Source: Marispirochaeta aestuarii
Lineage (GTDB): Bacteria > Spirochaetota > Spirochaetia > JC444 > Marispirochaetaceae
Assembly (NCBI RefSeq): GCF_002087085.1
Contig: NZ_MWQY01000010.1
Span: 62,001-126,000 of the forward strand
Length of the DNA: 64,000 nt
Direction of reading: 5' to 3'
The position numbers and the translations under genes were made by a program. Below, in pieces: positions 1,206 to 18,580 of this stretch (within the stretch, counting starts at the first letter, position 1; every line of letters begins with the position of its first letter). The notes beneath the pieces were generated by a model. That model saw nothing but the letters and a program-made list of their open reading frames with translations, was not told where the DNA came from and searched no databases.

Positions 1206-1396
1206 AATACAACCTCCTGGTACTGATGATCAGACTGTCTGCACGTCTTCTGCTTATAATGCAAAATACATGCCAAAAAAATCAAATGAAACAACTTAAT
1301 AAATGCATATACCACATGCACTTAAAAACCACAATACTCTGTATGCACCGAACCGCGTCTCGTGTGTCGCCAGGATGCGAAACACGGCTGCATCAT

Positions 1397-1415
1397 ATGT
1401 TGCACGGTGCAACAT
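1397..1415. promoter_or_regulatory. Perfect 19-bp palindrome, candidate operator
   Basis: ATGTTGCACGGTGCAACAT is a perfect inverted repeat about a central G. It lies in the 232-bp gap between the stop of the MFS gene and the TTG start of the URO-D gene, with no T-run on either side, so it does not look like a terminator. Dyads of this shape are typical of LacI- or GntR-type regulator sites; which regulator would bind is unknown. The rest of the gap is AT-rich, and I see no convincing promoter or small gene in it. Confidence 0.5.
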
Positions 1416-1437
1416 TACTATCGATCTGACGCTGGTT

Positions 1438-3687: not shown

Positions 3688-3748
3688 CTTTTACTGCATC
3701 CTGGTGCTTTTATGAGTCTGTTTTTTTGCTGTGTGGTAAGTACCTTCT

Positions 3749-4663
3749 TCAAATTACCCGCAAAAAAGGTTTCACCGATTCCATGATCCTGTCCAGCATG
3801 GCAAAGCTCAGTTCATCCATCTCCGGCCATCCCGCGGGCCTGCAGCCGGCGAAATCCAGTATTCCGCGCTTTTTGAGCATATGCTTGTAGGAGATTATCG
3901 GATAGGTTCCCCCAAACAGCAGGGCCGGCAGTACCTTGCTGTGCAGCTCAAAGGCCCCCGAGGCATCACCCTTCTCCAGAAGGTTCCAGACATCGACGAT
4001 CACATCGGTAAACTGGCTTGGCGGCATGGTTCCGCAGATACCGCGCTGATACTCTTCGATGATATTTCGTGCGCCGTTTCCGCCCATTATACCCTGCAAG
4101 CCGGAAGGGGTTTCGGAGTCGATTTCCAATATCGCCGATATCATGGCATTGGTACGGGGGCTCTCTTCCTTCAAGTAGCCTATATTGTCCAGTTCACGGA
4201 TGAGCCTCATTATGAACCGGGCACTCATAACCGTTCCCAGGGGCGGAAAGAGGTGCTGAATCATTATGGGGATGCTGACTGCGTCGTTGATCCGACGATA
4301 ATAATCATACAGTTCAGGTTCCGTTACCTTCATCAAGTGCGGCGGCGCGGCGATTATGCCGTCGGCGCCCACTGCCTGGGCATGCTGTGCAAGGTCGACA
4401 GCCCTACCGACATAGGCGGAAGTCACCCCCGCCAGGACAGGCGCCTTTCCATTGACTTCCCGTACAGTTACCTCGACGATCTTCTTCCGCTCCTCGTCGT
4501 CCAAAACAAAGTATTCCGTCGCGTAGACCGGAATTACGATTCCGTGGGCGCCGCAGTCCAGGCAGAAACGGACACAACGGCGAATGCCCTCGTAATCGAC
4601 ACTCAGATCCTGGTGATAGACCGCGGGGGGAATGGTAAAAACTCCACGAAACTGACCTTTCAT
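3749..4663 (-). CDS. DapA-family (dihydrodipicolinate synthase-like) aldolase/lyase
   Basis: This is a 304-residue TIM-barrel protein of the DHDPS/N-acetylneuraminate lyase family. The Schiff-base lysine is visible as K165 in IGYLKEES. The strand that carries the catalytic tyrosine in true DapA reads PIMIQHLFPPLG, with Gln136 near the Tyr position. This argues against lysine biosynthesis and for a catabolic aldolase or dehydratase acting on a 2-keto acid. AAGGAG lies just upstream of the ATG. It is the last gene of the TctCBA-URO-D-dehydrogenase operon, which fits cleavage of a 2-keto acid derived from the imported carboxylate (inference). Confidence 0.85.
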   Translation of the reverse strand: MKGQFRGVFTIPPAVYHQDLSVDYEGIRRCVRFCLDCGAHGIVIPVYATEYFVLDDEERKKIVEVTVREVNGKAPVLAGVTSAYVGRAVDLAQHAQAVGADGIIAAPPHLMKVTEPELYDYYRRINDAVSIPIMIQHLFPPLGTVMSARFIMRLIRELDNIGYLKEESPRTNAMISAILEIDSETPSGLQGIMGGNGARNIIEEYQRGICGTMPPSQFTDVIVDVWNLLEKGDASGAFELHSKVLPALLFGGTYPIISYKHMLKKRGILDFAGCRPAGWPEMDELSFAMLDRIMESVKPFLRVI

Positions 4664-4705
4664 GTATACTCCTTAACTGTGGCTCTCCGGACAGAATCAG
4701 GCCGC

Positions 4706-5551
4706 CTACTCCTTCTGCTGCAGTGCCTTCAGGACATCCTCCATGGAAGGACTGTCTCCGGCATCCTTGAACGTGGAAATCCTCTGGTAAATTATCGCCG
4801 CCGACCGGTGAAAACCTCCGGGAATATCCGCTTGCTCCAGGGTCTCTGCAATCTCCAGCATTTCCCCTTCAAAGCGCCAGGCCTTCGCGGTAACCGCCCG
4901 GATCCTGTCACTGATTTTCTGCGCTTTATCCGGAGCCTCCCGCTCCCACTGGGTCCGGAGTTCCTTCAGCACACCAAGCCTGTCGGCGGCGGCATTAACG
5001 GCGCACAGCAGGGCAAGGGTTCCCTTGGTATTGGCGGCGTAGCACATCTTCAGCGCAGAGGCCTTCCCGGCATCGGTTCCGATTACCTCTGTCAGAAGAG
5101 AAGTATCCCTGAAATATCCAGCGATCTGTGCAGCGCTTCTTCCCGACAGGTAGAGCCATGTACCGCCCCGCGTCCAGGCGGGGCCGCCGATAATGCCGCC
5201 GTCGACGAAATCCGCACCGGCACCATTAATCAGCGAAGCTATCTCCCGAGCATGGACCGGCGAGATGGCGTTAACATCGGCATACAGCCCCTTGTACGAC
5301 AGGGCCGCCACTTCGGCGGCTGTCTCCAGGGCGGTATGGGGAGGACATACGCTGATTATACACGAACAGGTTCCGCACATATCTTCAAGAGAGCTCAACG
5401 GAGTCAGGCCGTGTTTCTCCGCACGCTCCAGGGTTTCGCGGCTTCGACCTTCGGGAATCCAGCAGGCGTCATAGCCGTTTTCAATTACCGCCGCGGCCAG
5501 GGAAACCCCCATGTTGCCGGGATGCAGGAAACCGATACAATTGTCCTTCAC
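4706..5551 (-). CDS. NAD(P)-dependent oxidoreductase, 6PGDH-like with DUF1932-type C-terminus
   Basis: The 281-residue protein has an N-terminal Rossmann segment (IGFLHPGNMGVSLA), the central VDGGIIGGPAW strand typical of beta-hydroxyacid dehydrogenases, and KMCYAANTKGTLAL holding the helix with the catalytic lysine. The C-terminal helical part resembles the DUF1932 domain found with NAD-binding domain 2 proteins. It probably oxidises or reduces a 3-hydroxy acid. The start is GTG, preceded by AAAGGAGG. It sits between the D-2-hydroxyacid dehydrogenase and the DapA-like gene in one operon, so the three likely act in sequence on one substrate. Confidence 0.82.
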   Translation of the reverse strand: MKDNCIGFLHPGNMGVSLAAAVIENGYDACWIPEGRSRETLERAEKHGLTPLSSLEDMCGTCSCIISVCPPHTALETAAEVAALSYKGLYADVNAISPVHAREIASLINGAGADFVDGGIIGGPAWTRGGTWLYLSGRSAAQIAGYFRDTSLLTEVIGTDAGKASALKMCYAANTKGTLALLCAVNAAADRLGVLKELRTQWEREAPDKAQKISDRIRAVTAKAWRFEGEMLEIAETLEQADIPGGFHRSAAIIYQRISTFKDAGDSPSMEDVLKALQQKE

Positions 5552-5581
5552 CGGAAACCTCCTTTCCTAAACAGGAACCTG

Positions 5582-6544
5582 CTATCTGCGATCCGGCACA
5601 ACCACGGGGAATTTGGGCTGTACCCCTTTCATAACATCTTCAATTCCTCTGACAGCATCCATGGAAAGCCTCACCGCCGCCTCTTGAGTGAGCCCAGCGT
5701 TATGGGGAGACAGGATGACATTACCGAGAGAAAAGAGTGGATTGCCGTCAGCAGGAGGTTCGGGATTGAATACATCCAGGGCGGCCCCGGAAATCTCACC
5801 GGACCGAAGCGCTTCGACGAGCTCGGCTTCCCGGACAAGTTTTCCCCGGCCGCAGTTAATTAGATAAGCGCTCTGTTTCATGAGTTTGAACTCAGCGGCG
5901 CCTACGCCCTCCAGGGTCTCATCGGTAACAGGCACGTGCAGACTGACAAAGTCGGCCGTTCTGAACAGATCCTCCCGGCTCCCAAGCAGCTCGATACCTT
6001 CAGGAATGCGCCCCTTGTCGGCATAGGGATCATAGGCCGTTACCTTCATATCCAGTCCATGTATTGCCTTCCGGGCAACTTCCGAACCTATCTTTCCGAG
6101 CCCCAGAAGGCCCAGGGTTTTTCCAGCCAGATCAAAACCGATCTCCCGGTTGCGGAACTCGAAATCTCCGGTCCTGGTGGCCAGGTCCCCGCGGTAGAAG
6201 TTCCGGGCGCAGGCGATGATAAACCCGATGGTGTGTTCGGCCACCGTGGTAATATTCGCCACCGGTGAGTTGACTACCCAGATCCCGAGTTCCTTTGCTG
6301 CATCGAGGTCAACATTATCCACCCCGACTCCGTAACGGGCGATTACCTTCAGCTTTCCCGCAGCTTCGAGAACCTCCCGATCGATGACAGCCGTCCGGAG
6401 GTAGAGGGCTTCGCAATCCGCAATCTCCGCTTTCAGGGTATCCCTGTCTATTCCCGATCCCATCTTTATTTCACAGCCCAGCTCACGCAGATAATCGAGT
6501 CCTGATTTATCCAGCGTCTGCGGGACCAATATCTTGTATGCCAT
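5582..6544 (-). CDS. D-2-hydroxyacid dehydrogenase (phosphoglycerate dehydrogenase-like)
   Basis: The 320-residue protein carries the full set of family motifs: the dinucleotide loop [13 protein letters not shown], the catalytic arginine in NCGRGKLV, the acidic partner in FNPEPP, and the catalytic histidine in [12 protein letters not shown]. It lacks the ACT/regulatory domain of serine-biosynthetic SerA, so a catabolic 2-hydroxyacid role is more likely. ATG start with GGAG upstream. It lies 20 bp after the URO-D gene and 30 bp before the 6PGDH-like gene on the same strand. Confidence 0.88.
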
Positions 6545-6563
6545 TACTTCTCCATGTTTCAGT

Positions 6564-7757
6564 TTAGTTACTATCTCCGCCGAAATACTCCAGCGCCAGG
6601 GATTCCCACATTTTTATCTTCTCCAGCTGGTCCTCAAGGTCATCCCCCTGAGGCATCAGGGCGTCCGCCCGTACCGAGAAATTCCCATGGGGGCATTTTT
6701 GTACAATATCTTCCAGTTTCGCTCTCATCCGGGTTTCAGTTGCCATCACAACATCATTGACAGGGTGCAGGCATATCTCCAGGGCCGTTGAATCCCCAAA
6801 GATCAGGTCTGCTTCTTCGTAGGAGGTCCAGGGACCGATATGAACTACATCCAGGTTCGGCAGATTATTTATGGCGGGCAGGAAAGCCGTAATATTCCCG
6901 CAGCTATGCCAGTAGCGCACCCCTCCGTACTTATCGGCCAGCTCCTTCTCGTAGGGAAAAATCAGATCGTCATAAATTTTCGGACCGATGGAAGGACAGT
7001 CGATCTCGTCGTTGAAGAGTTTGATCCTGGAAGGCTCTTCCCCGGTAAACCTGCTGCGTTCCGCGGTCCAGGCCTTCTCCGCGTCCACGATAAAACGCAT
7101 CAGGCGGTGTACCGATTCGGGGTCCGTCAGCACTTCGCAGAACAGATCCGAGATTCCCCTGAGATGCACCGCCATGCAGAAAGGCCCCCGGGCCAGCTCG
7201 GGAAACATGACCTTCATGCGCCCGTCGGCTACTTCGTTCATGACTTCATAAAACTCGTGAACCCTGGGCATCAGGCCGCTGGTATAAAAATCCGGCGGCC
7301 TTAGTCTCTGGATATCATCAAGGGACTGCAGGACCGGACCTTTTATCCATCCCTCTTTATGCTCCTGCCATTCAACCTCGCTGCCGAAGAGGCTCAGCTC
7401 GGTAATGACTCCGAACCAGATATAGAGTTCATCGGTGTAGACATAGTTGTCCCGATACATCTCATGGTGCTTCAGATTTCGCAGCAACTGGAACTCCATG
7501 TGAGTATACGGATCACTATAATAGTCAATCAGATTAGTATTTCCTGTGAGCTTGCGCCACAGGGAAATATCCAGCTCCACGACAAAAGGAACAGTCTCAC
7601 CACTTCTTGAGGGCACAAAACCTCTTGGTTTGTCGCGGTTCCATCCGCCGTGTTCTTTCCACAAGGAAGCGTTCTGCAGGTTACGGGGACTGTTCACAAT
7701 CTCCAGATATCTGTCCATCAGATCCCGAATGGTACGGACCCTCTCTCCCGATATCAT
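6564..7757 (-). CDS. URO-D superfamily protein, paralog 2, with HxC...C metal motif
   Basis: This 397-residue member of the uroporphyrinogen decarboxylase superfamily differs from its two neighbours in keeping a zinc-type triad: H284-S-C286 in YWHSCGN and C329 in LEICLHP. That is the arrangement used by MtaA/MtbA-type cobamide methyltransferases. No corrinoid protein or reductive activase is visible in the window, so a methyltransferase role remains inference. GGAAGAG lies 8 nt before the ATG. It directly follows tctA in the transporter operon, which ties it to the imported compound. Confidence 0.82.
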   Translation of the reverse strand: MISGERVRTIRDLMDRYLEIVNSPRNLQNASLWKEHGGWNRDKPRGFVPSRSGETVPFVVELDISLWRKLTGNTNLIDYYSDPYTHMEFQLLRNLKHHEMYRDNYVYTDELYIWFGVITELSLFGSEVEWQEHKEGWIKGPVLQSLDDIQRLRPPDFYTSGLMPRVHEFYEVMNEVADGRMKVMFPELARGPFCMAVHLRGISDLFCEVLTDPESVHRLMRFIVDAEKAWTAERSRFTGEEPSRIKLFNDEIDCPSIGPKIYDDLIFPYEKELADKYGGVRYWHSCGNITAFLPAINNLPNLDVVHIGPWTSYEEADLIFGDSTALEICLHPVNDVVMATETRMRAKLEDIVQKCPHGNFSVRADALMPQGDDLEDQLEKIKMWESLALEYFGGDSN

Positions 7758-7784
7758 AAAACGCTCTTCCTTGTGTCCATACAG

Positions 7785-9296
7785 CTAATTCTTGATCTGT
7801 TTATTGAACTTGTTAAGGAAAATAACAAAGACCACTGCCAGCACCAGGAAAACGAGGCTGTCAATTTCCGTGAAAAAGATCAGCGGGTTGTTCTCTGAAA
7901 TGGAAAGGACCCGGCGAAAGTATTCCTCGAACAAGGGACCCAGCAGCACAGCCAGGATAAACGGTACAACAGGGTATTTCTGGGCTCGCAGAAAAAAGAC
8001 CAGCACCCCCACTCCAAGGGCCACGAACATCTGAAACACCGTATAGGTCGATGCAAATGCACCGGTCAGGGAAATGGCAGCGATGCTCGAATAGAGAACC
8101 AGGCGGTTAATCTTTACAATCTTGATATAGTAGGGCCCGAGCAGAAAGAGAGACAGAGGTATCAGAACGACCGCCGCGAACAGCAGCGCCGCGTACATGG
8201 GAGCCACCAGGTAGAGCTGCTTGGAGAGGATCTCCGGACCGGGAATAACACCGTAGACCATCAGTACACCGAGAACAATGGCGGTCACGCCGTCACCGGG
8301 AATACCGAAGGTAAGCATCGGCACCAGAGCTCCACCGCAGACCGCGTTATTGGCTGCTTCGGCGCAAGCGATTCCCTCGTAATGACCTGTACCATAGAGC
8401 TCCGGATGTTTGGAAGAACGTTTGCCCTCCGCATAGGAAACAAAGGCCCCCATGCTGCCGCCGGCCCCGGGAAGGACGCCGATAAAATAGCCGATTACTG
8501 CGCTTTTCAAGTAACGCCAGATTCCCACGGACTTAACCTGCTCCCAGGGAGGCAGGAAATCACGCCGCTTGATCTTCAGTCCCGAGGCCTCATCGGACAT
8601 ACGTTTAAAATCGGCGTTGCTGATGGTCGACTGGGTCAGAAGTTCTGCGATGGCGAAGGACCCGATTATTACCGGGACAAAATCAAAACCGTCCAAAAGG
8701 GCCACAGTACCGAAGGTAAAGCGCTGGGTGGGGCGGACGACACCCATGCCAAAGGTTGCCAGGGCCAGTCCCAGGATGATCATGAAGGCGGACTTGGGCC
8801 AGCGCTTTCCATCCAGGGAAGCTATTACAATAAAGGCGAACAGGATAAGCGAAGCCTTTCCGGGAGTACGGATCATCAGGGCAAGTTTCATTGCCAGAGG
8901 CGACACGGCAATCAGCAGCAGCACGCCGATGGTACCGCCGATGGCCGAGGCCAGGGTCGCGTGGCCCAGGGCCCGGGCCCCGAGGCCCTTCTTCATCATT
9001 TCGTGGCCGTCAAGTCCGGTCATGGCCGCAGAGGGCGCGCCGGGAATATTTATGGTTATCGCGGTTATACTGCCGGAGTACATTCCTGCCATGTAAATAC
9101 CCATGCACATAAAGAGCGCCGCGTTCATGGACATACTGTAGGTCATCGGCAGCAGCAGTACGATGGCCAGAGTGGCGGTCAAGCCGGGAATCGATCCGAA
9201 GATTACCCCCACGCCGAATCCTATCACAAGGGTGAACAGGAGTATGGGATCGGCCAGAAGGGTGAAGGACTGCAGAATTTGCGTAAAAGTTGACAT
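7785..9296 (-). CDS. tctA: Tripartite tricarboxylate transporter, large membrane subunit TctA
   Basis: The 503-residue polytopic protein shows the TctA hallmark GSIPGLTATLAIVLLLPMTY near residue 35 and a second family-typical stretch, GVLPGAGGSMGAFVSY. It forms the inner-membrane channel of a secondary transporter that works with the periplasmic protein TctC. ATG with GGGAGAAG upstream. It is encoded between tctB and the URO-D gene. Length and helix content are normal for the family. Confidence 0.95.
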   Translation of the reverse strand: MSTFTQILQSFTLLADPILLFTLVIGFGVGVIFGSIPGLTATLAIVLLLPMTYSMSMNAALFMCMGIYMAGMYSGSITAITINIPGAPSAAMTGLDGHEMMKKGLGARALGHATLASAIGGTIGVLLLIAVSPLAMKLALMIRTPGKASLILFAFIVIASLDGKRWPKSAFMIILGLALATFGMGVVRPTQRFTFGTVALLDGFDFVPVIIGSFAIAELLTQSTISNADFKRMSDEASGLKIKRRDFLPPWEQVKSVGIWRYLKSAVIGYFIGVLPGAGGSMGAFVSYAEGKRSSKHPELYGTGHYEGIACAEAANNAVCGGALVPMLTFGIPGDGVTAIVLGVLMVYGVIPGPEILSKQLYLVAPMYAALLFAAVVLIPLSLFLLGPYYIKIVKINRLVLYSSIAAISLTGAFASTYTVFQMFVALGVGVLVFFLRAQKYPVVPFILAVLLGPLFEEYFRRVLSISENNPLIFFTEIDSLVFLVLAVVFVIFLNKFNKQIKN

Positions 9297-9314
9297 TGTT
9301 TCTTCTCCCTTGTG

Positions 9315-9806
9315 CTACAGAATAAGACCAAAGAAGATCTTATCAAACTGGACTTTGAAGATTACCGCGTACAGCAGATAAATGACCGCGGTAACAATTA
9401 CCGAGTAGATGAATTTTCTGAGAAGCTGACGGACCTCATCGTCAAAAAAAACCATGAACAGGAAAACATATCCCAGCATGGCGGGAATGAGACCGATATA
9501 ATAGAAAGCAACAATATAGGCAAACGAGACAATCGAAAGAATGAACGGCGTCGAAACAACCTTGAAAGGTTTCTGTTCAGCTCCTCCGTGTTCCTCCCTG
9601 ACTTCCTGAACCGCGTCGAAAAGGATCTTCGCCCCCAGGGGAATGCCTAACAGCCCCAGGATGAGGGGAAAGAAGGCTTCTCCCGTCTTGTTCCCCACGA
9701 AGAACGTCCCCATTTCAATAGCCAAAGTCAGATAGCCCATCATGGCCAGCAGCATTACCGCCGGCACTACAACTTTCGCGCGCAGATACGGACTGCGGAT
9801 TTCCAT
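9315..9806 (-). CDS. tctB: Tripartite tricarboxylate transporter, small membrane subunit TctB
   Basis: This 163-residue protein has four predicted membrane helices (VVPAVMLLAMMGYLTLAI, FPLILGLLGIPLGAKILF, ILSIVSFAYIVAFYYIGLIP and a C-terminal helix), the TctB architecture. The identification also rests on its place between tctC and tctA. GAGGAAGG precedes the ATG. The sequence is poorly conserved in this family, so assignment depends partly on context. Confidence 0.88.
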   Translation of the reverse strand: MEIRSPYLRAKVVVPAVMLLAMMGYLTLAIEMGTFFVGNKTGEAFFPLILGLLGIPLGAKILFDAVQEVREEHGGAEQKPFKVVSTPFILSIVSFAYIVAFYYIGLIPAMLGYVFLFMVFFDDEVRQLLRKFIYSVIVTAVIYLLYAVIFKVQFDKIFFGLIL

Positions 9807-9899
9807 ATATGACCTTCCTCTGTTTCAGGATAATTATGCAGACAGCGCCCCATAAGGGGGCGCCGTTTTCTCTTATCTTTTACATACGATGCGGCAGGC

Positions 9900-10892
9900 T
9901 TATTCGATTATACCCTTGGCCCGCATACCGTCCAGAGTCTTGAAGTTTGATTCCATCAGGTTGCGTACAAAGTCGCCCGCCTTGTCCTGACCGTACCAGG
10001 TGGGGGTAACACCTACAGAAAGGGTCCAGTCCCGGAAATCCTTGGAATGCTGGGCGTCGTAGTAGTATTTTTCCAGGGTGTCAAGCACGTCCTGGGGAGT
10101 TCCTTTGGGAGCGACGATAGCGATAAAGCTGCCGATCTCCATTTCAGGATTGCCCTGAGAAGCGATGGTCGGAACATCAGGATAGGTTTCGTTCTGTTCC
10201 AGGGAGTATTCAACAAGGCCCTTGACGGCACCGGATTTGAGTACCGCCGCGAAATCCCCCAGGCTGGTAATGACAGCATCACATTCGCCGCTCAGCAGGG
10301 CTTCCCGCTGGGGTCCCGCGCCCTCAACGTATTCGATCTGCTGGAACTTGACACCGTAAACCTCTTCCATCTGGGTCGTTATCATCGAAGGCCGTCCGCC
10401 GATTGCGGTAATCCCGATTCGCAGCTTGCCGGGATTTGCCCTGGCAGCATCAATGAACTCCTTATAGCTTTTCCACGGAGCATCGGCTTTTACCATCAAT
10501 GCGTCGGCTTCCTGGGTTACGACGCAGATAATCTCAAGATTGTCTATGTCGTACTGGGGAATAAGCTTGTAGTATACCGCACCGACTACCGCACCATAGG
10601 TGAGGTTCCCGATGGTATATCCATCATTACGGGCGCGCATAACGTCGAAAGGACCTTCCGCCTCGCCTTTTCCGGGCTTGTTAATTACGGGAATGGTTAC
10701 ATCCACGGATTTCTCTATAATGGACGCCAGTTTACGGTTAATCGTATCCGTACCGCCACCGGCACCGCCGTTACAAATAAACTGGATATCCTTGCTGGGA
10801 TAGGCCTTCTCCTGTCCGCCCTCGGCAAAAAGAGCGACAACCAGAAGCATTGCCAGTCCGATAACCAGAAGCTTCACGACATTCTTGTTCAT
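9900..10892 (-). CDS. tctC: Tripartite tricarboxylate transporter, periplasmic binding protein TctC (Bug family)
   Basis: A 330-residue secreted binding protein. A signal segment (VVKLLVIGLAMLLVVALFA) is followed by a mature end rich in Gly and Gln (EGGQEK), then the Bug/TctC opening YPSKDIQFICNGGAGGGTD and a later APKGTPQDVLDTLEKYY. It captures a carboxylate in the periplasm and delivers it to TctAB; the ligand cannot be read from sequence. GGAG lies upstream of the ATG. It is first in the operon, behind a long leader with a large hairpin and an operator-like dyad. Confidence 0.93.
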   Translation of the reverse strand: MNKNVVKLLVIGLAMLLVVALFAEGGQEKAYPSKDIQFICNGGAGGGTDTINRKLASIIEKSVDVTIPVINKPGKGEAEGPFDVMRARNDGYTIGNLTYGAVVGAVYYKLIPQYDIDNLEIICVVTQEADALMVKADAPWKSYKEFIDAARANPGKLRIGITAIGGRPSMITTQMEEVYGVKFQQIEYVEGAGPQREALLSGECDAVITSLGDFAAVLKSGAVKGLVEYSLEQNETYPDVPTIASQGNPEMEIGSFIAIVAPKGTPQDVLDTLEKYYYDAQHSKDFRDWTLSVGVTPTWYGQDKAGDFVRNLMESNFKTLDGMRAKGIIE

Positions 10893-10935
10893 ACCAAAAT
10901 CTCCTTCGTTCCTAAATAACGGGCCGAAATGGTCC

Positions 10936-10980
10936 GTTTAAAAAAACTGTCCGATTATTCTCTGGACGGTTTTTTTAAAC
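10936..10980. terminator. Long inverted repeat: bidirectional terminator or leader attenuator
   Basis: GTTTAAAAAAAC and GTTTTTTTAAAC flank a GTCC/GGAC core, giving about 17 paired bases with one mismatch around an 11-nt loop. Read on the minus strand it ends in a run of seven T, as expected for rho-independent termination of the upstream URO-D gene (stop at 11085). It also lies between the operator-like dyad at 11002 and tctC, so it could sit in the tctC leader. Confidence 0.7.
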
Positions 10981-11001
10981 ACAAATCCCCTCTATAGTCC
11001 A

Positions 11002-11022
11002 TTTGTATTCAAATTGTATACC
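11002..11022. promoter_or_regulatory. Operator-like site, copy 1, upstream of tctC
   Basis: TTTGTATTCAAATTGTATAC is an imperfect dyad (GTAT...ATAC) about 110 bp before tctC. An almost identical sequence lies just before the URO-D gene at 12092, and nothing similar was noticed elsewhere in the window. TCTATA at 10991-10996 (TATAGA on the minus strand) could be the -10 box beside it. The shape resembles GntR-type operators; the regulator is not identified. Confidence 0.45.
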
Positions 11023-11084
11023 GACGTTTTTCAGCTGTCAATTAAAATTATTCAGTTATCTGAACAATATTCAAACCTGAGCCG

Positions 11085-12092
11085 TTACCAGCAGGTGCAC
11101 AGAGCCTCTATGTTCTCCAGCGAGACATCCACCCCCGCAACACTCTGTCCAATCAGCCCTCCGCCGTTTACCGTGAGAAGATCCTTCATCCTGGCGGCAC
11201 ACTTTCGGATTTCTGAGGGGCCCTGAAAGGCCAGGACATTCTGACGATCGATTTCGCCCCAGAAGCAGATCTTTCCTTTAAAGTTTCTGCCGATCTCTTC
11301 AAGGTCCATAATCCAGAGCTGGCTGTTGACAGCATCAACGCCAAGGTCGATCCATTCCTTGTATAAATCATATACATAGCCATCGCTGTGGAAGAACACG
11401 TATTTTCCCCTGGCTTTGATTTTTTCGATGAGGTCCTTGTAAACCGGTTTGAAAATCGAGACAAAATCCCGGGGAGAGATAAGCAGGCTGATCTGGGACC
11501 CCCAGTCCTCGGTAAAAAAGATCCCGTCCACATCCTTCTCAAGCCAGTAATCGAGATAGAAATCAAAATATTCGGAAATTTTATCCCGGAAAACAAACAA
11601 TTCCTGTTCCTTCATTCCTATATCCATGAACAGGTTTTCCGTGCCCCGGACAAACTGCATGCGCTGAAAAGGCTCGACCTTGCCGCCGACAACAAAACGC
11701 CTGTTATTCCGGGAGATTCTGATTTTCTCCTCCACAACGGCATCGTTGCGTCTCCATTCGGATTTCAGCCATTCATAGGGGGGAGAGAATTTTTTTACAT
11801 CCGTCAGGTCTTTCAGGACGGGTTCTTTGACCTCCCCGACCATGCCATCCGCCAGCACCAGCCATGAGCTTCCCCAGGTGTCGGTATAGCGTCCTGCCGT
11901 GGTGGAACGGCTGTAGAAGTTTCTGTCCCCGGGACCGGCGATAAGATCAATATCGTTCGGATATTTCCGGATGAGCCCGGCAAGCTGTTCACCATATCTT
12001 TGCCTGGTTGCCTGGTGAAACCAGAGGTTCAAAGGAATATGATCCGGATTGCCGAAATGTAATGCCGCAACTACCCTTTCTCTGCTTGTCAT
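11085..12092 (-). CDS. URO-D superfamily protein, paralog 3
   Basis: The 335-residue product opens with TSRERVVAALHFGNPDHIPLN, the classical URO-D superfamily start. It continues with FFTEDWGSQ and an H235-S-D237 motif (FFHSDGYVYDL) in place of the HxC of zinc methyltransferases, then WIDLGVDAVNSQLW and CFWGEID. It is thus of the same H-x-D subtype as paralog 1. I prefer the ATG at 12092 with a weak GGATG upstream; an in-frame TTG at 12104 has no ribosome site. It lies 96 bp after the transketolase-like gene with its own operator-like dyad, so it may be separately controlled. Function unknown. Confidence 0.8.
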   Translation of the reverse strand: MTSRERVVAALHFGNPDHIPLNLWFHQATRQRYGEQLAGLIRKYPNDIDLIAGPGDRNFYSRSTTAGRYTDTWGSSWLVLADGMVGEVKEPVLKDLTDVKKFSPPYEWLKSEWRRNDAVVEEKIRISRNNRRFVVGGKVEPFQRMQFVRGTENLFMDIGMKEQELFVFRDKISEYFDFYLDYWLEKDVDGIFFTEDWGSQISLLISPRDFVSIFKPVYKDLIEKIKARGKYVFFHSDGYVYDLYKEWIDLGVDAVNSQLWIMDLEEIGRNFKGKICFWGEIDRQNVLAFQGPSEIRKCAARMKDLLTVNGGGLIGQSVAGVDVSLENIEALCTCW

Positions 12093-12110
12093 AAACACAT
12101 CCAAATATTT

Positions 12111-12132
12111 TTTGTATTCAATATGTATACAG
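12111..12132. promoter_or_regulatory. Operator-like site, copy 2, upstream of URO-D paralog 3
   Basis: TTTGTATTCAATATGTATAC matches the site at 11002 in all but three positions and keeps the GTATTC...GTATAC arms. It begins 19 bp upstream of the chosen ATG, where a bound repressor would block transcription. Shared control with the tctC operon is inferred. Confidence 0.45.
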
Positions 12133-12188
12133 CTTAGGTGCGTATTGTTTATTCCGTATATAAAATAGTGTTGATTTCTGGTAATTTT

Positions 12189-13214
12189 TTACAGACAGGC
12201 GCTTATGTGTATCTCCCAGGGAACATCGAGATCCCACAAACTCCGGACAGTCTGCTCCGCCTCCCGGGCGCTGGAGGGACACTCAATCCGGCGCATGTGC
12301 CGTGCCTTCCGCAGGTTTCCGGAAAGAGAAAAACCGCTCCTGCTGCAACGTGCGACAAAAGAGGTGCCGCCGGCCTCTCCGACGCCCCTTGCCAGAGAAA
12401 AGGCCGTCGCGGCGGCGGGCCCGCAATCCACCACCTGGACTTTTTCGGTATTTCCGTATGCCCCGGGAAAGCTGCACAGCCGGCCTCCTTCGGTAACGGA
12501 AAAAATAACCTTCCGAGCCTCTCCCGGCACCTCCTCTATTCCCCGCAGGATTGCGGATATTTGTTCATGAAAAGCGGTCTCTGCAGAGCTGCTGTCTATA
12601 CCTGATCGCAGTGCTGAGAATTCCGGGTCATCTTCAAGCGCCTGGGTGATAATCACAGACGGAATATCCCCTGATTCAGGAGGTTTCAGCTGGCTGAACC
12701 CCTCAGCAATGGCAGCGGCATTCATGAAGCGCACATTCCATCCGCAGGCAGCATACTTGTCGGCGATGAATCCCGCACCGGGACCGGACTCTACAACAAA
12801 GGCGATGAGTTTTCCCAGGCGAAGTTTGACGCTCCTGATTGCGGCTTCCCAGACTCCTCCCAGGAACTGATCGGTATCGGACATACAGCAACAGGTACAG
12901 CTCTTCCCGCCTTGAAGAGAAGCTTCAAAGGCGACTCCCGCTGCAAATCCCAGAGCGCTGTGAGGGCGGCGCATGATTGGACTGCCGGGGGTCTTCCCCG
13001 GATCGCGCTCCCCGATTTCCCGATACAGGGCATGAAGTGCCGACCTGCTGAAGGAGCTGGACCAGATTACCCGTGCCGGATTCACTCTGAACAGAAGCGC
13101 GGCAATTTCAAGATGGCTGAGAGAGCGGTCAGGTCTGTTCTGTAAAACACAGCTGCGAACTTCGCCCGCAATTTTCTGCAGCTCAGAGAGGGACAATTCG
13201 CTCTTAGCTACCAT
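12189..13214 (-). CDS. Transketolase-like protein lacking the thiamine diphosphate motif (probable pseudoenzyme)
   Basis: The 341-residue protein aligns without gaps by eye to transketolase. Residues ~85-165 match the PP domain (HSALGFAAGVAFEASL, then MSDTDQFLGGVWEAAI). Residues ~255-295 match the Pyr domain (VVDCGPAAATAFSLARGVGEAGGTSF against the usual vGIAEQNmvgvAaGLA pattern). Every key cofactor residue is changed: the GDG start of the ThDP motif is S112-D-T114, its Asn end is Gly144, and the catalytic Glu of IAEQN is Ala268. The third transketolase domain is absent. GGGAGG lies upstream of the ATG. It follows dctM by 65 bp in the TRAP operon. It may be a binding or regulatory subunit rather than an enzyme. 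Confidence 0.7.
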   Translation of the reverse strand: MVAKSELSLSELQKIAGEVRSCVLQNRPDRSLSHLEIAALLFRVNPARVIWSSSFSRSALHALYREIGERDPGKTPGSPIMRRPHSALGFAAGVAFEASLQGGKSCTCCCMSDTDQFLGGVWEAAIRSVKLRLGKLIAFVVESGPGAGFIADKYAACGWNVRFMNAAAIAEGFSQLKPPESGDIPSVIITQALEDDPEFSALRSGIDSSSAETAFHEQISAILRGIEEVPGEARKVIFSVTEGGRLCSFPGAYGNTEKVQVVDCGPAAATAFSLARGVGEAGGTSFVARCSRSGFSLSGNLRKARHMRRIECPSSAREAEQTVRSLWDLDVPWEIHISACL

Positions 13215-13279
13215 GGCCCGCCCTCCCGGGAAGAAAGATGCTCCGACGGGGGAAATCCCGCCGGAGATTCATAAAGACT

Positions 13280-14620
13280 CTACATCGTACTGGGCAACCA
13301 GAGAGCAATCTGCGGATAGGCAATCATTAACAGGAGTACGACCATGACAATAAAGACGTAGGGTATCATGCCTCGTATGATGTCGTTGGTGCTTATACCC
13401 AGTTCCGGCTTTGCCGCTCCTTTCAGGAAAAACATGGCATAGGCAAAGGGAGGAGTAAGGAAGGACATCTGCAGGTTGACGATTACCATCATTGCAAACC
13501 AGAGAGGATCAAATCCAAGCTTGGGAATAATCGGCGCAAGAATCGGTACCATTACAAAGATAATACCAATCCAGTCGATGAATGCCCCCAGAATAAAACA
13601 GATGACCATGATCATCGTGAATACAACCCAGCGTCCCCCGGGGAAGCCGAGGATAAAATCTTCTACAACAGCCCCGCCGCCTGCACTCAGAAAAACGCTT
13701 ACGAAGGTTGTGGACGCACTGGCGATAAGCAAAACCATACCCGTCAGCTTGATCGTGGAAAGAGCCACATCCATCAGGACCGGAATCGTCAGCCTGCGAT
13801 AGGCTAGAGTCAGAAGGGTGGCGACTACGGCTCCTACGGCAGCTGCTTCAGTGGGTGCTGCGACACCGAAATAGATGGCCCCCAGCACCGAGAGAATAAG
13901 AATCGCCGTGGGAGCGACGGTCTGCAGAACGAGCATGCTTTTGTGGTAGAAGGAATCTCTCCGTTCCTCGACGGGTACAACCGGGGCAAGGGAGGGCTTC
14001 ATCAGGCAGCGTATGGTTATATAGACCATATACAGGCCGGAAAGCACCAGTCCCGGTACAAAGGCCGCCATAAAGAGCTTGCCCACGGAAATCCGGGCTA
14101 CCGGCCCATAGACTATCAGCATGATACTTGGAGGGATAAGGATACCCAGGGAGCCCCCCGCGCATATTGCCCCGGTGGCCAGGCCTTTGTCGTAACCGCG
14201 CTCGATCATGGCCGGAAGAGCCACCAGAGTCAGCATGGTTATCGATGCAGCAATAATACCTACACTGGCCGCCATTACCGTTCCAATTATTATACTGACA
14301 ATGGCCAGCCCCCCGCGGAACCCTCCGAACCAGAGGTAGAGGGCTTTATACATCCTCTCCGCGATACCCGACTTTTCCAGCATATTTCCCATGAATACGA
14401 AGAGAGGCACAGCCATCAGGCCATAATCTGTGACGATAGCGTATACCCGGCTGTAGATAAGATCGAAGGAGTTCGGCCCGAAGAGCAGGAAGCCGGTTAT
14501 GACCCCCACCCCGCCGATGGGAATGGCCAGGGGAAAGCCGGTCAATACCCCTACAAAAAGGGCTCCGAACATGATAATCGTTATTGTCTCAGGGCTTAAT
14601 TGTGCAAACGCGCCAATCAT
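13280..14620 (-). CDS. dctM: TRAP transporter large permease DctM
   Basis: The 446-residue membrane protein has the DctM-like pattern: FVGVLTGFPLAIPIGGVG at the N-terminus, VPLFVFMGNMLEKSGIAERMYK, ICAGGSLGILIPPSIMLIVYG in the middle, and PILAPIIPKLGFDPLWFAMM near the C-terminus. It is the sodium- or proton-coupled channel of a TRAP importer. Its ATG overlaps the dctQ stop (ATGA), showing translational coupling. Substrate is unknown; the neighbouring URO-D and transketolase-like genes suggest an unusual organic acid. Confidence 0.94.
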   Translation of the reverse strand: MIGAFAQLSPETITIIMFGALFVGVLTGFPLAIPIGGVGVITGFLLFGPNSFDLIYSRVYAIVTDYGLMAVPLFVFMGNMLEKSGIAERMYKALYLWFGGFRGGLAIVSIIIGTVMAASVGIIAASITMLTLVALPAMIERGYDKGLATGAICAGGSLGILIPPSIMLIVYGPVARISVGKLFMAAFVPGLVLSGLYMVYITIRCLMKPSLAPVVPVEERRDSFYHKSMLVLQTVAPTAILILSVLGAIYFGVAAPTEAAAVGAVVATLLTLAYRRLTIPVLMDVALSTIKLTGMVLLIASASTTFVSVFLSAGGGAVVEDFILGFPGGRWVVFTMIMVICFILGAFIDWIGIIFVMVPILAPIIPKLGFDPLWFAMMVIVNLQMSFLTPPFAYAMFFLKGAAKPELGISTNDIIRGMIPYVFIVMVVLLLMIAYPQIALWLPSTM

Positions 14621-15162
14621 ATCAGTTCCCTCTTTTTGATCAGGTAGTACAGATCACAGGAAAACTGGGCCAGACACTGCAGCCCGAAAAGGATGAACCC
14701 CAGCAGAAGGGCCGTGCGGAACGGGGCCGCCGGGGGCAGCCAGCTGCTCTCGATCATCTTTTCGCCGGTCTGCCAGGCGCGAATCGTCCATTTTGTCCCT
14801 ACCCCTATCAGCACGAATACCAGGGGAAACAGCATCAGCAGCGACATGATAACGTCGATCAAGGCCTGCCCCCTGCGGGGAACCAGGGCATAGATAACAT
14901 CCACCCGCACGTGCCCGCCCAGCTTGTGGGTATACCCCCAGCCGCAGGCGCCGATTGTTCCAAGCAGCATTTTTGAGGTTTCCAGCGCCCAGACAGTCGG
15001 GGAATTGAAAACATAGCGCATGGTTACCTCGGTAAACAGAACAAGAACCAGGGCCATTACCAGATACTTTATGAACTGTCCGGTTGCCTCGCTCAATGCA
15101 AAGACTGAACGGGCAAAACCGCGGACAATGGCCCAGTCATTTTCCAGGGCTTCTTTTCCCAT
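14617..15162 (-). CDS. dctQ: TRAP transporter small permease DctQ
   Basis: I place the start at the ATG at 15162 (MGKEALENDWAIV), preceded by AGGAG, rather than at the longer frame reaching 15252. This gives 181 residues with four helices: LVMALVLVLFTEVTMRYVF, the MLLGTIGACGWGYTHKLGGHVRVDVIY segment, SLLMLFPLVFVLIGV and LLLGFILFGLQCLAQF. The GGHVRVDV stretch is typical of DctQ. Its stop overlaps the dctM start. Confidence 0.9.
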   Translation of the reverse strand: MGKEALENDWAIVRGFARSVFALSEATGQFIKYLVMALVLVLFTEVTMRYVFNSPTVWALETSKMLLGTIGACGWGYTHKLGGHVRVDVIYALVPRRGQALIDVIMSLLMLFPLVFVLIGVGTKWTIRAWQTGEKMIESSWLPPAAPFRTALLLGFILFGLQCLAQFSCDLYYLIKKRELI

Positions 15163-15227
15163 CGGATAACTCCTGTAAGACTCCCTGCCGGCTCTGACTG
15201 ATCCGGCAGGGGTTATTTGGTTAAGTG

Positions 15228-16307
15228 CTACTTTATGTCGAAACGTTCGCAAACCTCTTTCCAGGCCATGGCACTGTCATAGATTCGCTTGTAATTGGGA
15301 TCCTTGGCAGACTCTTCCTGGAAATACTCCAGGGATTTCTCGTTCAAGAGATCGATAATGTCCTGGGGAACCGGTTCCACGATGGTTCCGGCGTCGATAT
15401 ATTTCTGCACTGCTTCCACATCACGGTTTACCGACTCGGTGTAGTACTCCCTGGCGATCTGGTCTGTCGCCATGGTAACAATTGTCTTGAGATTCTCCGG
15501 CAGTTTGTCCCAGGTATCCCCGTTGACATAGATACACTGGGTATCCGTAGGTGCCCGGGAAGGAGACAGGTACATATACTTCGCAACCTCGTGGAATCCC
15601 ATATCCCAGTTCAGCGAGGGGTTGATGTATTCGAACCCGTCAATAACGCCTCTTTTCGCAGATTCATAAATCTCTCCCCCGGGGAGAAAGACCGGGGTCG
15701 CTCCCATTTTCTGGAAAATTGCGTTCAGCGCTGTAGTCCCGAGCCGTACCTTCCATCCCTTGATATCCGCAACAGACCGGAGGGGTTTGGTGGAGTGGGC
15801 CCAGACCTCAGCAGGGCTGAGAGTCAGGATACCGACATAGTGAACCCCCAGATCATCGTAAAGGTCCTGGGCTATTTTACGACCCTCCAGCTTCATCCAC
15901 ATCTCGAGCTGATTCGAGGTCAGTCCTCCCGGATACTGGGTAAAGAACACGGCGCCGGGAAGGTAGCCGATTGTCCAGCCCGGAGGTCCGTGAACCGCTT
16001 CCACAGATCCCGACATGACCGAATCAAACTCTTTTCCACCGGGAATAACCGATCCGGCGGTATACGGTGTAATAAGGAGCTGCCCGTCGGAAGCAATTTC
16101 AACCACCTCCGCGAAACGCTGAGCCGCTTCGTAGGTCCTGTCTCCGGCGGGAGCCCAGGACTGCAGCCTCCAGCGTATAACCTCCTTTTTAGGAGCCGCC
16201 GCTTCAGCCGTTGCATCCTCCCCTGAGGAACCGCCGCAGGCGATCAGCATACCGAAGGTCAATACGATGAGTATCAGGAAAACTATACCCCTCTGTCCTC
16301 TGTTCAT
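15228..16307 (-). CDS. dctP: TRAP transporter periplasmic binding protein DctP
   Basis: The start is the ATG at 16307, which has AGGAGG 6 nt upstream; the open frame continues to 16337 without a ribosome site. The 359-residue product has a lipoprotein signal (VFLILIVLTFGMLIAC) followed by GGSSGEDATAEAAAPKKE. The mature body includes RWRLQSWAPAGDRTYEAAQRFAE and LKGWKVR-type features (IKGWKVRLGTTALNAIF) of DctP proteins. It binds the solute outside the membrane and passes it to DctQM. First gene of the TRAP operon. Confidence 0.93.
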   Translation of the reverse strand: MNRGQRGIVFLILIVLTFGMLIACGGSSGEDATAEAAAPKKEVIRWRLQSWAPAGDRTYEAAQRFAEVVEIASDGQLLITPYTAGSVIPGGKEFDSVMSGSVEAVHGPPGWTIGYLPGAVFFTQYPGGLTSNQLEMWMKLEGRKIAQDLYDDLGVHYVGILTLSPAEVWAHSTKPLRSVADIKGWKVRLGTTALNAIFQKMGATPVFLPGGEIYESAKRGVIDGFEYINPSLNWDMGFHEVAKYMYLSPSRAPTDTQCIYVNGDTWDKLPENLKTIVTMATDQIAREYYTESVNRDVEAVQKYIDAGTIVEPVPQDIIDLLNEKSLEYFQEESAKDPNYKRIYDSAMAWKEVCERFDIK

Positions 16308-16363
16308 TCCGTACCTCCTGGTCAATATAAAGCGCAAAGAAAATCTGCGCCTGAAGGTGGATA

Positions 16364-16379
16364 TTCAAGAAGCGTACCA
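16364..16379 (-). promoter_or_regulatory. Candidate sigma-54 (-24/-12) promoter for the TRAP operon
   Basis: On the minus strand TGGTACGCTTCTTGAA matches the consensus TGGCACGnnnnTTGCA at all but two informative positions, with exact GG to TTG spacing. It lies about 57 bp upstream of dctP, and a sigma-54 activator gene is divergent next door. The -12 GC is GA here, so strength is uncertain. Confidence 0.45.
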
Positions 16380-16508
16380 GCTGCAGCTCCACAGAAAGAG
16401 ATTCGGGGAAAAACATCTTAAATGTTCAGCATCTTCTATCTTATTGACGGGTAAGTATTTAATTACCTGATAAACAGGCTTGCCAGGGTTATCGGTGCAT
16501 ATGCGCCC

Positions 16509-16524
16509 GTATACCGGGATATAC
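16509..16524. promoter_or_regulatory. Inverted repeat, candidate activator site
   Basis: GTATACCGGGATATAC has perfect 5-bp arms (GTATA/TATAC) and lies about 130 bp upstream of the -24/-12 element, a usual distance for a sigma-54 enhancer site. It sits in the 320-bp divergent region between dctP and the activator gene. The rest of that region shows no gene; a looser GGTAA/TTACC dyad lies near 16450. Confidence 0.3.
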
Positions 16525-16627
16525 AAGAAAGTACATGCTGTAAAAAACTGCAGCCGGTGCGGTATTCTCCGGCACTGTGCTGCGTATTTTCTTGTCGATT
16601 TTCCGGGCCCGTGCAATAATAGGTATA

Positions 16628-18559
16628 ATGGATGCTTATGCGATCCTGCCGTACAAAGGCCTGGTGGAAATTGCTTCGGAAACCGGGAGAGAACTGAAAC
16701 TCGACCTGAAGATTTTCGAGGGTGAAACCGAAGAGGCAATACCCTTCGCCATGGATGCCCAGAAACGGGGGGCGGACTGCATCATCAGCCGGGGGGGAAC
16801 AGCCTCCATAATTGAACGGTATGTCAATGTTCCCATTGTACGGGTCCCGGTAAGTGAACTGGACCTCCTGCGAATTCTCTATCCTTTGAAAGGCCTGGAC
16901 AGAAAGATCCTGGTTGTGGGCTTCAGAAACGCTGTATTCCGGGCCAGGTCCGCCGCACGGGTTTTAGGTCTTCAAATCCAGGAACTCCCGATCCCCTATG
17001 AGGCTGCCGACTATAATTTTGACCATATCAGACGCAGCGCGGAACACCTTATCCGCCATCACGGAATCGATACAATTATCGGGGATCAGACCGCCTTTAT
17101 AAATCTCAGATCCTACTGCGAGAGTCAGTACCTGATAACATCCAGCAAGGATGATTTTCTCACAGCCCTCAGGAATTCACAGCTCCTGAACACGGATGGT
17201 CAGCGGGAACAGCAGGATCAGATCCAGGTCGTGTTGAATGCTGTGCAGGAGGGTATTATCTCTACCGACACCCATGGAAGAGTAACCAGCTTCAATATAA
17301 AGGCGGCGGAGATTTTCGGAATGGAACCGGGTATGGTGATAGGCGCCTCTCTGGATGAACTGGCCGGGTATTTCAGGGATTTCGAAGAACTGAAATCCAC
17401 AATCTCCCTTACCCTTCGCAATGGAAACCCGGAGAGCATACAACTCTCCCGCCCGAAGGGCCCCGAGGTCTACGAGATCAATTCCGCCCCCCTGGTATCA
17501 CAAAAGGGAATTCACGGGACAGTGACAACTATCATACGAAGCAGTCACGCTCATAGCGGTAAGAGCGCCGGGAATAAGCACCCATCTGCCGGAACATTCA
17601 ACACTCATTACAGTTTCAAGGATATCCTGGGCAGGGATGAAGCCTTTGTACGTGTGCTGGCCGTCGCCCGGGCCTATACCATGACGGATGCCACAATCCT
17701 GATTGAAGGGGAAAGCGGTGTGGGAAAGGAGATGTTCGCCCAGAGTATTCACGCCTCGGGGCCAAGAAAAGAGGGTCCTTTCGTGGCGGTAAACTGTGCC
17801 TCCATACCTGAACCGCTTTTGGAGAGTGAACTCTTCGGCTACGAGCAGGGAGCATTTACCGGAGCCTCCAGGGCGGGACAGAAAGGACTCTTCGAGCTGG
17901 CCGACGGAGGAACTCTTTTCCTGGACGAAATAAGCGAGATTGATCAGAAAATGCAGATGAATCTTCTGCGGGTCCTGGAAGAACGCCGGATTCGCCGCAT
18001 CGGATCAGACAGATTGCGGGATGTCGACGTTCGCGTAATAGCGGCTTCCAACAGGGACCTGCGTAAACTGATCGACGAGAACCATTTCCGCCCCGACCTT
18101 TTTTACCGTCTGAATCTGCTGAACCTTCATATTCCAGCCCTGAGGGAACGGAAAGCAGACATCCCCCTGCTGGCGGAACACTTTTTTACACAGTTCTGCA
18201 GACACTATGGCGGCAAGGAGGTGCGGCTTACCGAGGATATCCTCAACAGACTGCGCTGCTACCCCTGGCCGGGGAACATACGGGAACTGAAAAACATAAT
18301 GGAACGGACGGCTCTTACCATAGCCACCCGCTGCCTGGAGCTTTCCGATCTGGAAATCATCACCCGGGAGCTGAACAACAGTCTGAGTTCCCGAAGCTCC
18401 CGGATAAATGAACTGTCCTTCTGCGGAACCCTGAACACGATAAAACACCAGGCCGCCGAATCAGCACTGCAGGCGGCAGGATACAATAAAAGCCATGCCG
18501 CCCGGATGCTGGGTATAGACCGGTCAACCCTGGACCGGCTGCTGGATCCCAGGGACTGA
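16628..18559 (+). CDS. Sigma-54-dependent activator with PrpR-type sensor and PAS domains
   Basis: Starting at the ATG at 16628 (AGG just upstream) the protein has 643 residues. Residues 1 to ~170 resemble the PrpR_N/propionate-activator sensor domain (MDAYAILPYKGLVEIA, IISRGGTASIIERYVNVPIV). A PAS segment follows (LNAVQEGIISTDTHGRVTSFN). The AAA+ domain has Walker A G361ESGVGKE, the sigma-54 contact loop GAFTGA at 408-413, and Walker B GGTLFLDEI. A Fis-type helix-turn-helix closes the protein (NKSHAARMLGIDRSTLDRLL). It is divergent from the TRAP operon and very likely its activator, responding to a small organic acid (inference). Confidence 0.9.
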   Translation: MDAYAILPYKGLVEIASETGRELKLDLKIFEGETEEAIPFAMDAQKRGADCIISRGGTASIIERYVNVPIVRVPVSELDLLRILYPLKGLDRKILVVGFRNAVFRARSAARVLGLQIQELPIPYEAADYNFDHIRRSAEHLIRHHGIDTIIGDQTAFINLRSYCESQYLITSSKDDFLTALRNSQLLNTDGQREQQDQIQVVLNAVQEGIISTDTHGRVTSFNIKAAEIFGMEPGMVIGASLDELAGYFRDFEELKSTISLTLRNGNPESIQLSRPKGPEVYEINSAPLVSQKGIHGTVTTIIRSSHAHSGKSAGNKHPSAGTFNTHYSFKDILGRDEAFVRVLAVARAYTMTDATILIEGESGVGKEMFAQSIHASGPRKEGPFVAVNCASIPEPLLESELFGYEQGAFTGASRAGQKGLFELADGGTLFLDEISEIDQKMQMNLLRVLEERRIRRIGSDRLRDVDVRVIAASNRDLRKLIDENHFRPDLFYRLNLLNLHIPALRERKADIPLLAEHFFTQFCRHYGGKEVRLTEDILNRLRCYPWPGNIRELKNIMERTALTIATRCLELSDLEIITRELNNSLSSRSSRINELSFCGTLNTIKHQAAESALQAAGYNKSHAARMLGIDRSTLDRLLDPRD

Positions 18560-18580
18560 TTATCCGATCTCAGTCCCTGG
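18549..18580. terminator. Inverted repeat formed by the 3' ends of two convergent genes
   Basis: CCAGGGACTGA (18549-18559) and TCAGTCCCTGG (18570-18580) are perfect 11-bp arms around a 10-bp loop. The left arm includes the stop of the sigma-54 activator and the right arm the stop of ettA; both proteins end in Arg-Asp. No T-run follows, so it is a stem-loop rather than a textbook terminator. Confidence 0.6.

Follow-up and report, generated by a model that had tools for sequence, protein, structure and literature searches.

Split transketolases, in which the N-subunit (TkN) carries the PP domain and a separate chain (TkC) the Pyr and C-terminal domains, are among the closest described relatives of the protein analysed here. 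Cofactor binding by a split transketolase requires both chains (PMC7661550). Human TKTL1 is a transketolase paralogue which is highly similar to TKT and has lost part of the active site through a PP-domain deletion; a human TKT variant carrying a deletion modelled on that of TKTL1 folds and does not bind thiamin diphosphate (PMC3485151). The activity of TKTL1 itself is disputed (PMC6334435). Transketolase-family pseudoenzymes seem hardly described in bacteria: in the literature searched, the papers that contain both words include none on a bacterial case, as judged by titles and abstract openings. A search for reports of spirochaete TRAP operons with a transketolase gene found none.

The protein, P0001, is encoded in a window of 64,000 nucleotides (the whole stretch of DNA that was analysed) from Marispirochaeta aestuarii. 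Its residues ~5-194 can be aligned, as a PP fold, with ChTK-N from Carboxydothermus hydrogenoformans (6yak chain AAA) and with the TkN whose genes adjoin TkC genes in this genome and in related ones. Unlike ChTK-N, it has substituted or lost the ThDP/Mg and substrate motifs, has no adjacent C-subunit gene, and carries ~146 extra residues at its C end instead of pairing with a separate Pyr and C chain. Like TKTL1 it lacks part of the PP domain, but it is far more diverged and has no C-terminal domain. We consider P0001 to be a lineage-specific, fast-evolving, non-catalytic TkN derivative which acts, if at all, by contact, and give this reading as a whole a probability of about 45 %.

Homology and predicted fold of the two halves

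The features of the open reading frame are:
12189-13214, minus strand: open reading frame (as called) of P0001, a degenerate and very probably transketolase-derived protein of 341 aa
12633-13202, minus strand: PP-domain (transketolase N-subunit) part, residues ~5-194, in which the ThDP and substrate motifs have suffered in-frame deletions (hhalign, HMM, AlphaFold2, structural Z)
12192-12629, minus strand: C-terminal part, residues ~196-341, of unproven origin; the order of its elements fits a shortened Pyr domain, sequence homology is not significant

The frame runs from an ATG through 341 codons with no stop, and a plausible Shine-Dalgarno-like GGGAGGG lies ~6 nt 5' of the start. Both the intact frame and the good translation signals claimed in the original prediction are therefore found.

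The N half (~5-194) is homologous to transketolase N-subunits, with scores far beyond the level of chance. P0001 has no Pfam match at E 1 and no phmmer match among PDB sequences, and only the transketolase model of NCBIfam detects it, weakly (E=0.034). Its blastp matches include many TkN of related genomes (E 1e-7 to 1e-11), hhalign from the single sequence gives 98.2 % to the transketolase N-subunit for residues 5-194, and a TkN HMM scores 41.9 bits, compared to at most 4.4 for shuffled sequences. The best single blastp match is a fused transketolase (L123; 28 %, residues 68-246), which belongs to a group of fused enzymes of the same class (with L002, L125, L127 and L128; ~665-700 aa). P0001, at 341 aa against ~670 for these, has neither a detectable C-terminal domain nor a significant Pyr part. 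Its ancestor, judged by sequence, is a transketolase N-subunit or the N part of a fused transketolase, and that P0001 is a non-catalytic TkN derivative appears highly probable. In a tree it sits on an extremely long branch, so long that its placement is useless. Descent from one of the split transketolases of the genome itself was considered, and no candidate stands out.

AlphaFold2 predicts the PP core confidently (pLDDT about 80-97 in blocks between residues 81 and 190). Foldseek ranks the split transketolase 6yak first among matches of the model (E=1.5e-9), and VIA-align gives a Z of 20.1 over 215 residues. As the input alignment (A1) contains transketolases and biases the model, the fold is support and no independent proof; a single-sequence model was poor. 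The predicted transketolase fold thus finds support in the N half; in the C half, AlphaFold2 confidence is low.

In none of the sequence tests is the C half significantly similar to the Pyr domain. The HMM score falls inside the shuffle range, the mean pairwise alignment has a z of 2.3 (8 of 300 shuffles score as high), and a PSSM gives a z of -1.0 in a test which penalises long deletions. In the single-sequence model, whose confidence is low, the predicted elements are a helix at 209-227, a strand at 234-242, a helix at 267-282, a strand at 287-290, a strand at 306-310, a helix at 316-327 and a strand at 333-337. Only the order of these predicted elements supports a Pyr domain shortened in its middle, with which it is compatible. 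The same data bear on an explanation that overlaps with ours and differs on the C half, namely that a degenerate PP domain has been fused to an unrelated C-terminal domain which bears the present function. The lack of significant Pyr similarity in 196-341 by all three methods and the low AlphaFold2 confidence would fit such a fusion; the element order argues against it, and we regard it as unlikely. For the alignment to PP and Pyr domains from which this work started, it is thus the PP part that stands, while the Pyr part finds no support in the sequence tests.

Cofactor and substrate motifs

Alignment A1 has 32 rows (P0001 and 31 TkN/TK sequences) and supports one further feature:
12873-12881, minus strand: codons 112-114, SDT replacing GDG, with Asp113 kept

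The alignment had been described as free of gaps. On the contrary, about seven in-frame indels separate the PP part from the 31 TkN/TK sequences. Their lengths include 7 aa (GHxGG region), 8 aa (PxxRD), 19 aa (preceding the GSLGxG segment) and 10 aa (ThDP loop). Among 64 columns conserved at ≥85 %, P0001 keeps 26, substitutes 29 and has deleted 9. The lost columns include GHxGG, SxGH, GSLGxG, the glycines of GDG, and DxN: after the 7-aa gap, NRPDR (residues 26-30) occupies the position of GHxGG, and SxGH is SSSF. Asp113, Glu123 and His216 are among the invariant columns that are retained.

The replacement of GDG by SDT, as originally proposed, is anchored by W122-E123-A124-A125, which is kept in register; since Asp113 and this following W-E-A-A are retained, SDT is not an alignment error. 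Two residue assignments do not hold. The Asn of the ThDP motif had been equated with Gly144, and falls within the 10-aa deletion after residue ~140. Ala268 stands at the position of the catalytic Glu only if residues 196-341 are aligned to Pyr, an alignment which is not significant by HMM, pairwise comparison or PSSM. The broader claim that the ThDP motif is lost is borne out: nearly every ThDP-contacting motif is gone, partly through in-frame deletions. P0001 does not match the GDG-X(~25-30)-N motif of TkN, having SDT and a deleted Asn region; the GDGE...DxN signature is present in almost all of 42 homologs.

Taken together, the loss of these motifs, the behaviour of the TKT variant (PMC3485151) and the need for both chains in the split enzyme (PMC7661550) argue strongly that P0001 is incapable of binding Mg-ThDP in the transketolase manner, so that it would not perform ketol transfer either.

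Gene neighbourhood and distribution

The surrounding features are:
13280-14620, minus strand: dctM, TRAP large permease (DctM, E=2.6e-78)
14617-15252, minus strand: dctQ, TRAP small permease; open reading frame as called, true start probably downstream
15228-16337, minus strand: dctP, TRAP solute-binding protein; open reading frame as called, true start probably downstream
13241-13266, minus strand: 10-bp GC-rich hairpin with a short T-rich tail in the gap between dctM and P0001, terminator- or attenuator-like and also present in the minimum-energy structure
1219-18563: block missing from the corresponding site of a congener (G002), where the ABC-F gene adjoins the URO-D gene of 75-1205

The gene lies 65 nt downstream of dctM in the same direction, with dctP and dctQ further upstream, and is followed by a URO-D/MtaA-like gene (11085-12104). 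The structure z-score of the hairpin region is not unusual. Because this terminator-like hairpin (13266-13241) stands between them, co-transcription of dctM and P0001 is likely, not certain. The 19-bp sequence GTATACAwwTTGAATACAA, a candidate operator or promoter element, occurs exactly twice in the window (chance expectation 0.03), at 12112-12130 before the URO-D gene and at 11003-11021 before tctC (minus strand), where it overlaps a near-consensus promoter. It is not found in front of P0001, which, if it belongs to any unit, would therefore probably close the TRAP unit rather than be part of the URO-D/tct one.

The ten closest dctPQM operons (DctM 69-82 %; L070-L077, L100, L110), which come from Spirochaetales MAGs, have lactate-racemase-like (LarA), RidA or unrelated genes after dctM and never a transketolase. 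As P0001 is also absent from congeners, the proposed association with a TRAP operon does not appear to be a meaningful one.

A C-subunit partner is absent alongside P0001, whose neighbours are dctM and the URO-D gene. Elsewhere in the genome there are fused transketolases and several TkN/TkC pairs with both subunits present, and no unpaired transketolase C-subunit. The genome's sole Pyr chain of subunit size without an adjacent TkN is PDH E1-beta, which lies with its own E1-alpha, E2 and E3, so there is no dedicated orphan C-subunit for P0001. P0001 might instead dock onto a C-subunit that belongs to another pair.

In G002, 298 bp separate the ABC-F gene (95 %) from the URO-D gene of 75-1205 (92 %). 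Since these flanking genes adjoin there, window positions ~1219-18563 correspond to a block of ~17.3 kb that G002 lacks at this site; in two other genomes of the same genus or family, the block is not beside the ABC-F gene either. It contains dctPQM, tctABC, two URO-D-like genes and genes for a 2-hydroxyacid dehydrogenase, a DapA-type aldolase and a DUF1932-type dehydrogenase. Acquisition from outside would be the simplest reading. The block has no tRNA and no obvious terminal repeats. No close relative of its DUF1932-type gene turned up in the phylum sample, and tracing a donor through its 37 % matches on Streptomyces plasmids was not informative.

Two observations concern other genes of the block. 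The DapA-type (3749-4663), DUF1932/HIBADH-like (4706-5551) and phosphoglycerate-dehydrogenase-like (5582-6544) genes are consecutive on the minus strand, and this row (3749-6544) looks like a hydroxy-acid catabolic set. The URO-D/MtaA-like genes 6564-7757 and 11085-12104 have 75 % and 77 % paralogs side by side at G000:C9:85460-87982 (L061), adjoining a different tctABC with MR/MLE and RraA-like genes.

No ortholog of P0001 was found in relatives. Searches of 393 genomes of the phylum and 395 of the class (overlapping samples, the latter with two genomes of the same genus and one of the same family) returned only ordinary transketolases (1e-4 to 1e-8). Genome and viral contigs scanned for near matches yielded no ortholog either; these scans need near-exact 8-residue stretches and miss distant orthologs, which may exist in other phyla. 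Among plasmids, tblastn gave two transketolase-like matches (27 %). The best reading is that P0001 is so far unique and would be lineage-specific.

Selection, decay and possible role

Neutral decay was simulated by letting real TkN genes drift until they had lost as many conserved residues as P0001 (300 runs, 226 codons compared). The simulated genes acquired a mean of 4.9 stops per 226 codons and none of the 300 runs remained free of stops, compared to 0 stops in P0001, whose indels are all in frame. The hydrophobic pattern is kept in 51 of 63 columns; the neutral mean is 0.70, and 9 of 300 runs are as high.

The constraint is nevertheless clearly relaxed, as indicated by the composition, the excess of Ser and Cys and the lack of any detected ortholog. 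Indeed, P0001 has a composition score of -0.004, with window genes at 0.124 ± 0.036 and the random-codon expectation at -0.131, so that its amino acid composition is about halfway between the two. Its GC2 is the highest among the genes compared, and both Cys (z=6.1) and Ser (z=4.2) exceed those of all other window proteins examined. The view that the gene is under selection and not decaying is thus right for the frame, which is guarded beyond neutral expectation, and wrong if it implies undiminished constraint. Long-term retention is read from one sequence, since no searched set contained an ortholog.

These data also bear on the proposal that P0001 is a relic near loss, a former transketolase subunit which came in with the block, has lost its use and has a frame that is still open by chance. 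The lack of orthologs in congeners and in the sampled phylum and class, the extremely long branch, the drifted composition with raised GC2 and excess Ser and Cys, the unrecognisable C half and the terminator-like hairpin upstream all fit such a relic. Against it stand a frame that has only in-frame indels and no stop, where about 5 are expected neutrally in the N part and no simulated run matched it, a hydrophobic pattern kept somewhat better than neutral, and a plausible Shine-Dalgarno sequence. The simulation leaves room for a gene that diverged mostly under earlier selection and began to decay recently. We hold the relic, the chief alternative to our reading, to be a tenable, if less than probable, explanation, and place a non-catalytic working protein slightly ahead of it.

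Alternatively, P0001 might still be an enzyme with another cofactor or substrate, using the retained Asp113, Glu123 and His216 in a new site. The catabolic enzymes of the block (the 2-hydroxyacid dehydrogenase, the DapA-type aldolase, the DUF1932-type dehydrogenase and the URO-D/MtaA-type proteins) would fit this, as would the retention of the three residues. The loss of nearly all other active-site motifs, partly by deletion, and the relaxed constraint across the whole protein make this very improbable.

As a non-catalytic TkN derivative, P0001 may still fold as a PP domain. If it acts, it could do so through the PP-fold surfaces which normally form the alpha2beta2 assembly, touching itself, transketolase C-subunits or other proteins made by the block; this contact mechanism, taken on its own, is doubtful. 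The suggestion of a cofactor-free transketolase fold with a binding or regulatory role, here within an acquired block for organic-acid uptake, is equally speculative. Such a role, for example occupying transketolase C-subunits or sensing a hydroxy acid, is possible, and there is no positive pointer to it. If our reading is true, a PP domain stripped of its motifs and kept in frame shows a scaffold outliving its chemistry; with a single known copy, the P0001 gene might just as well be on the verge of breaking.

Two antisense open reading frames on the plus strand (12138-12605 and 12205-12570) have codon usage scores below that of the P0001 frame; the antisense frames are all interrupted by stops across the region and were dismissed.
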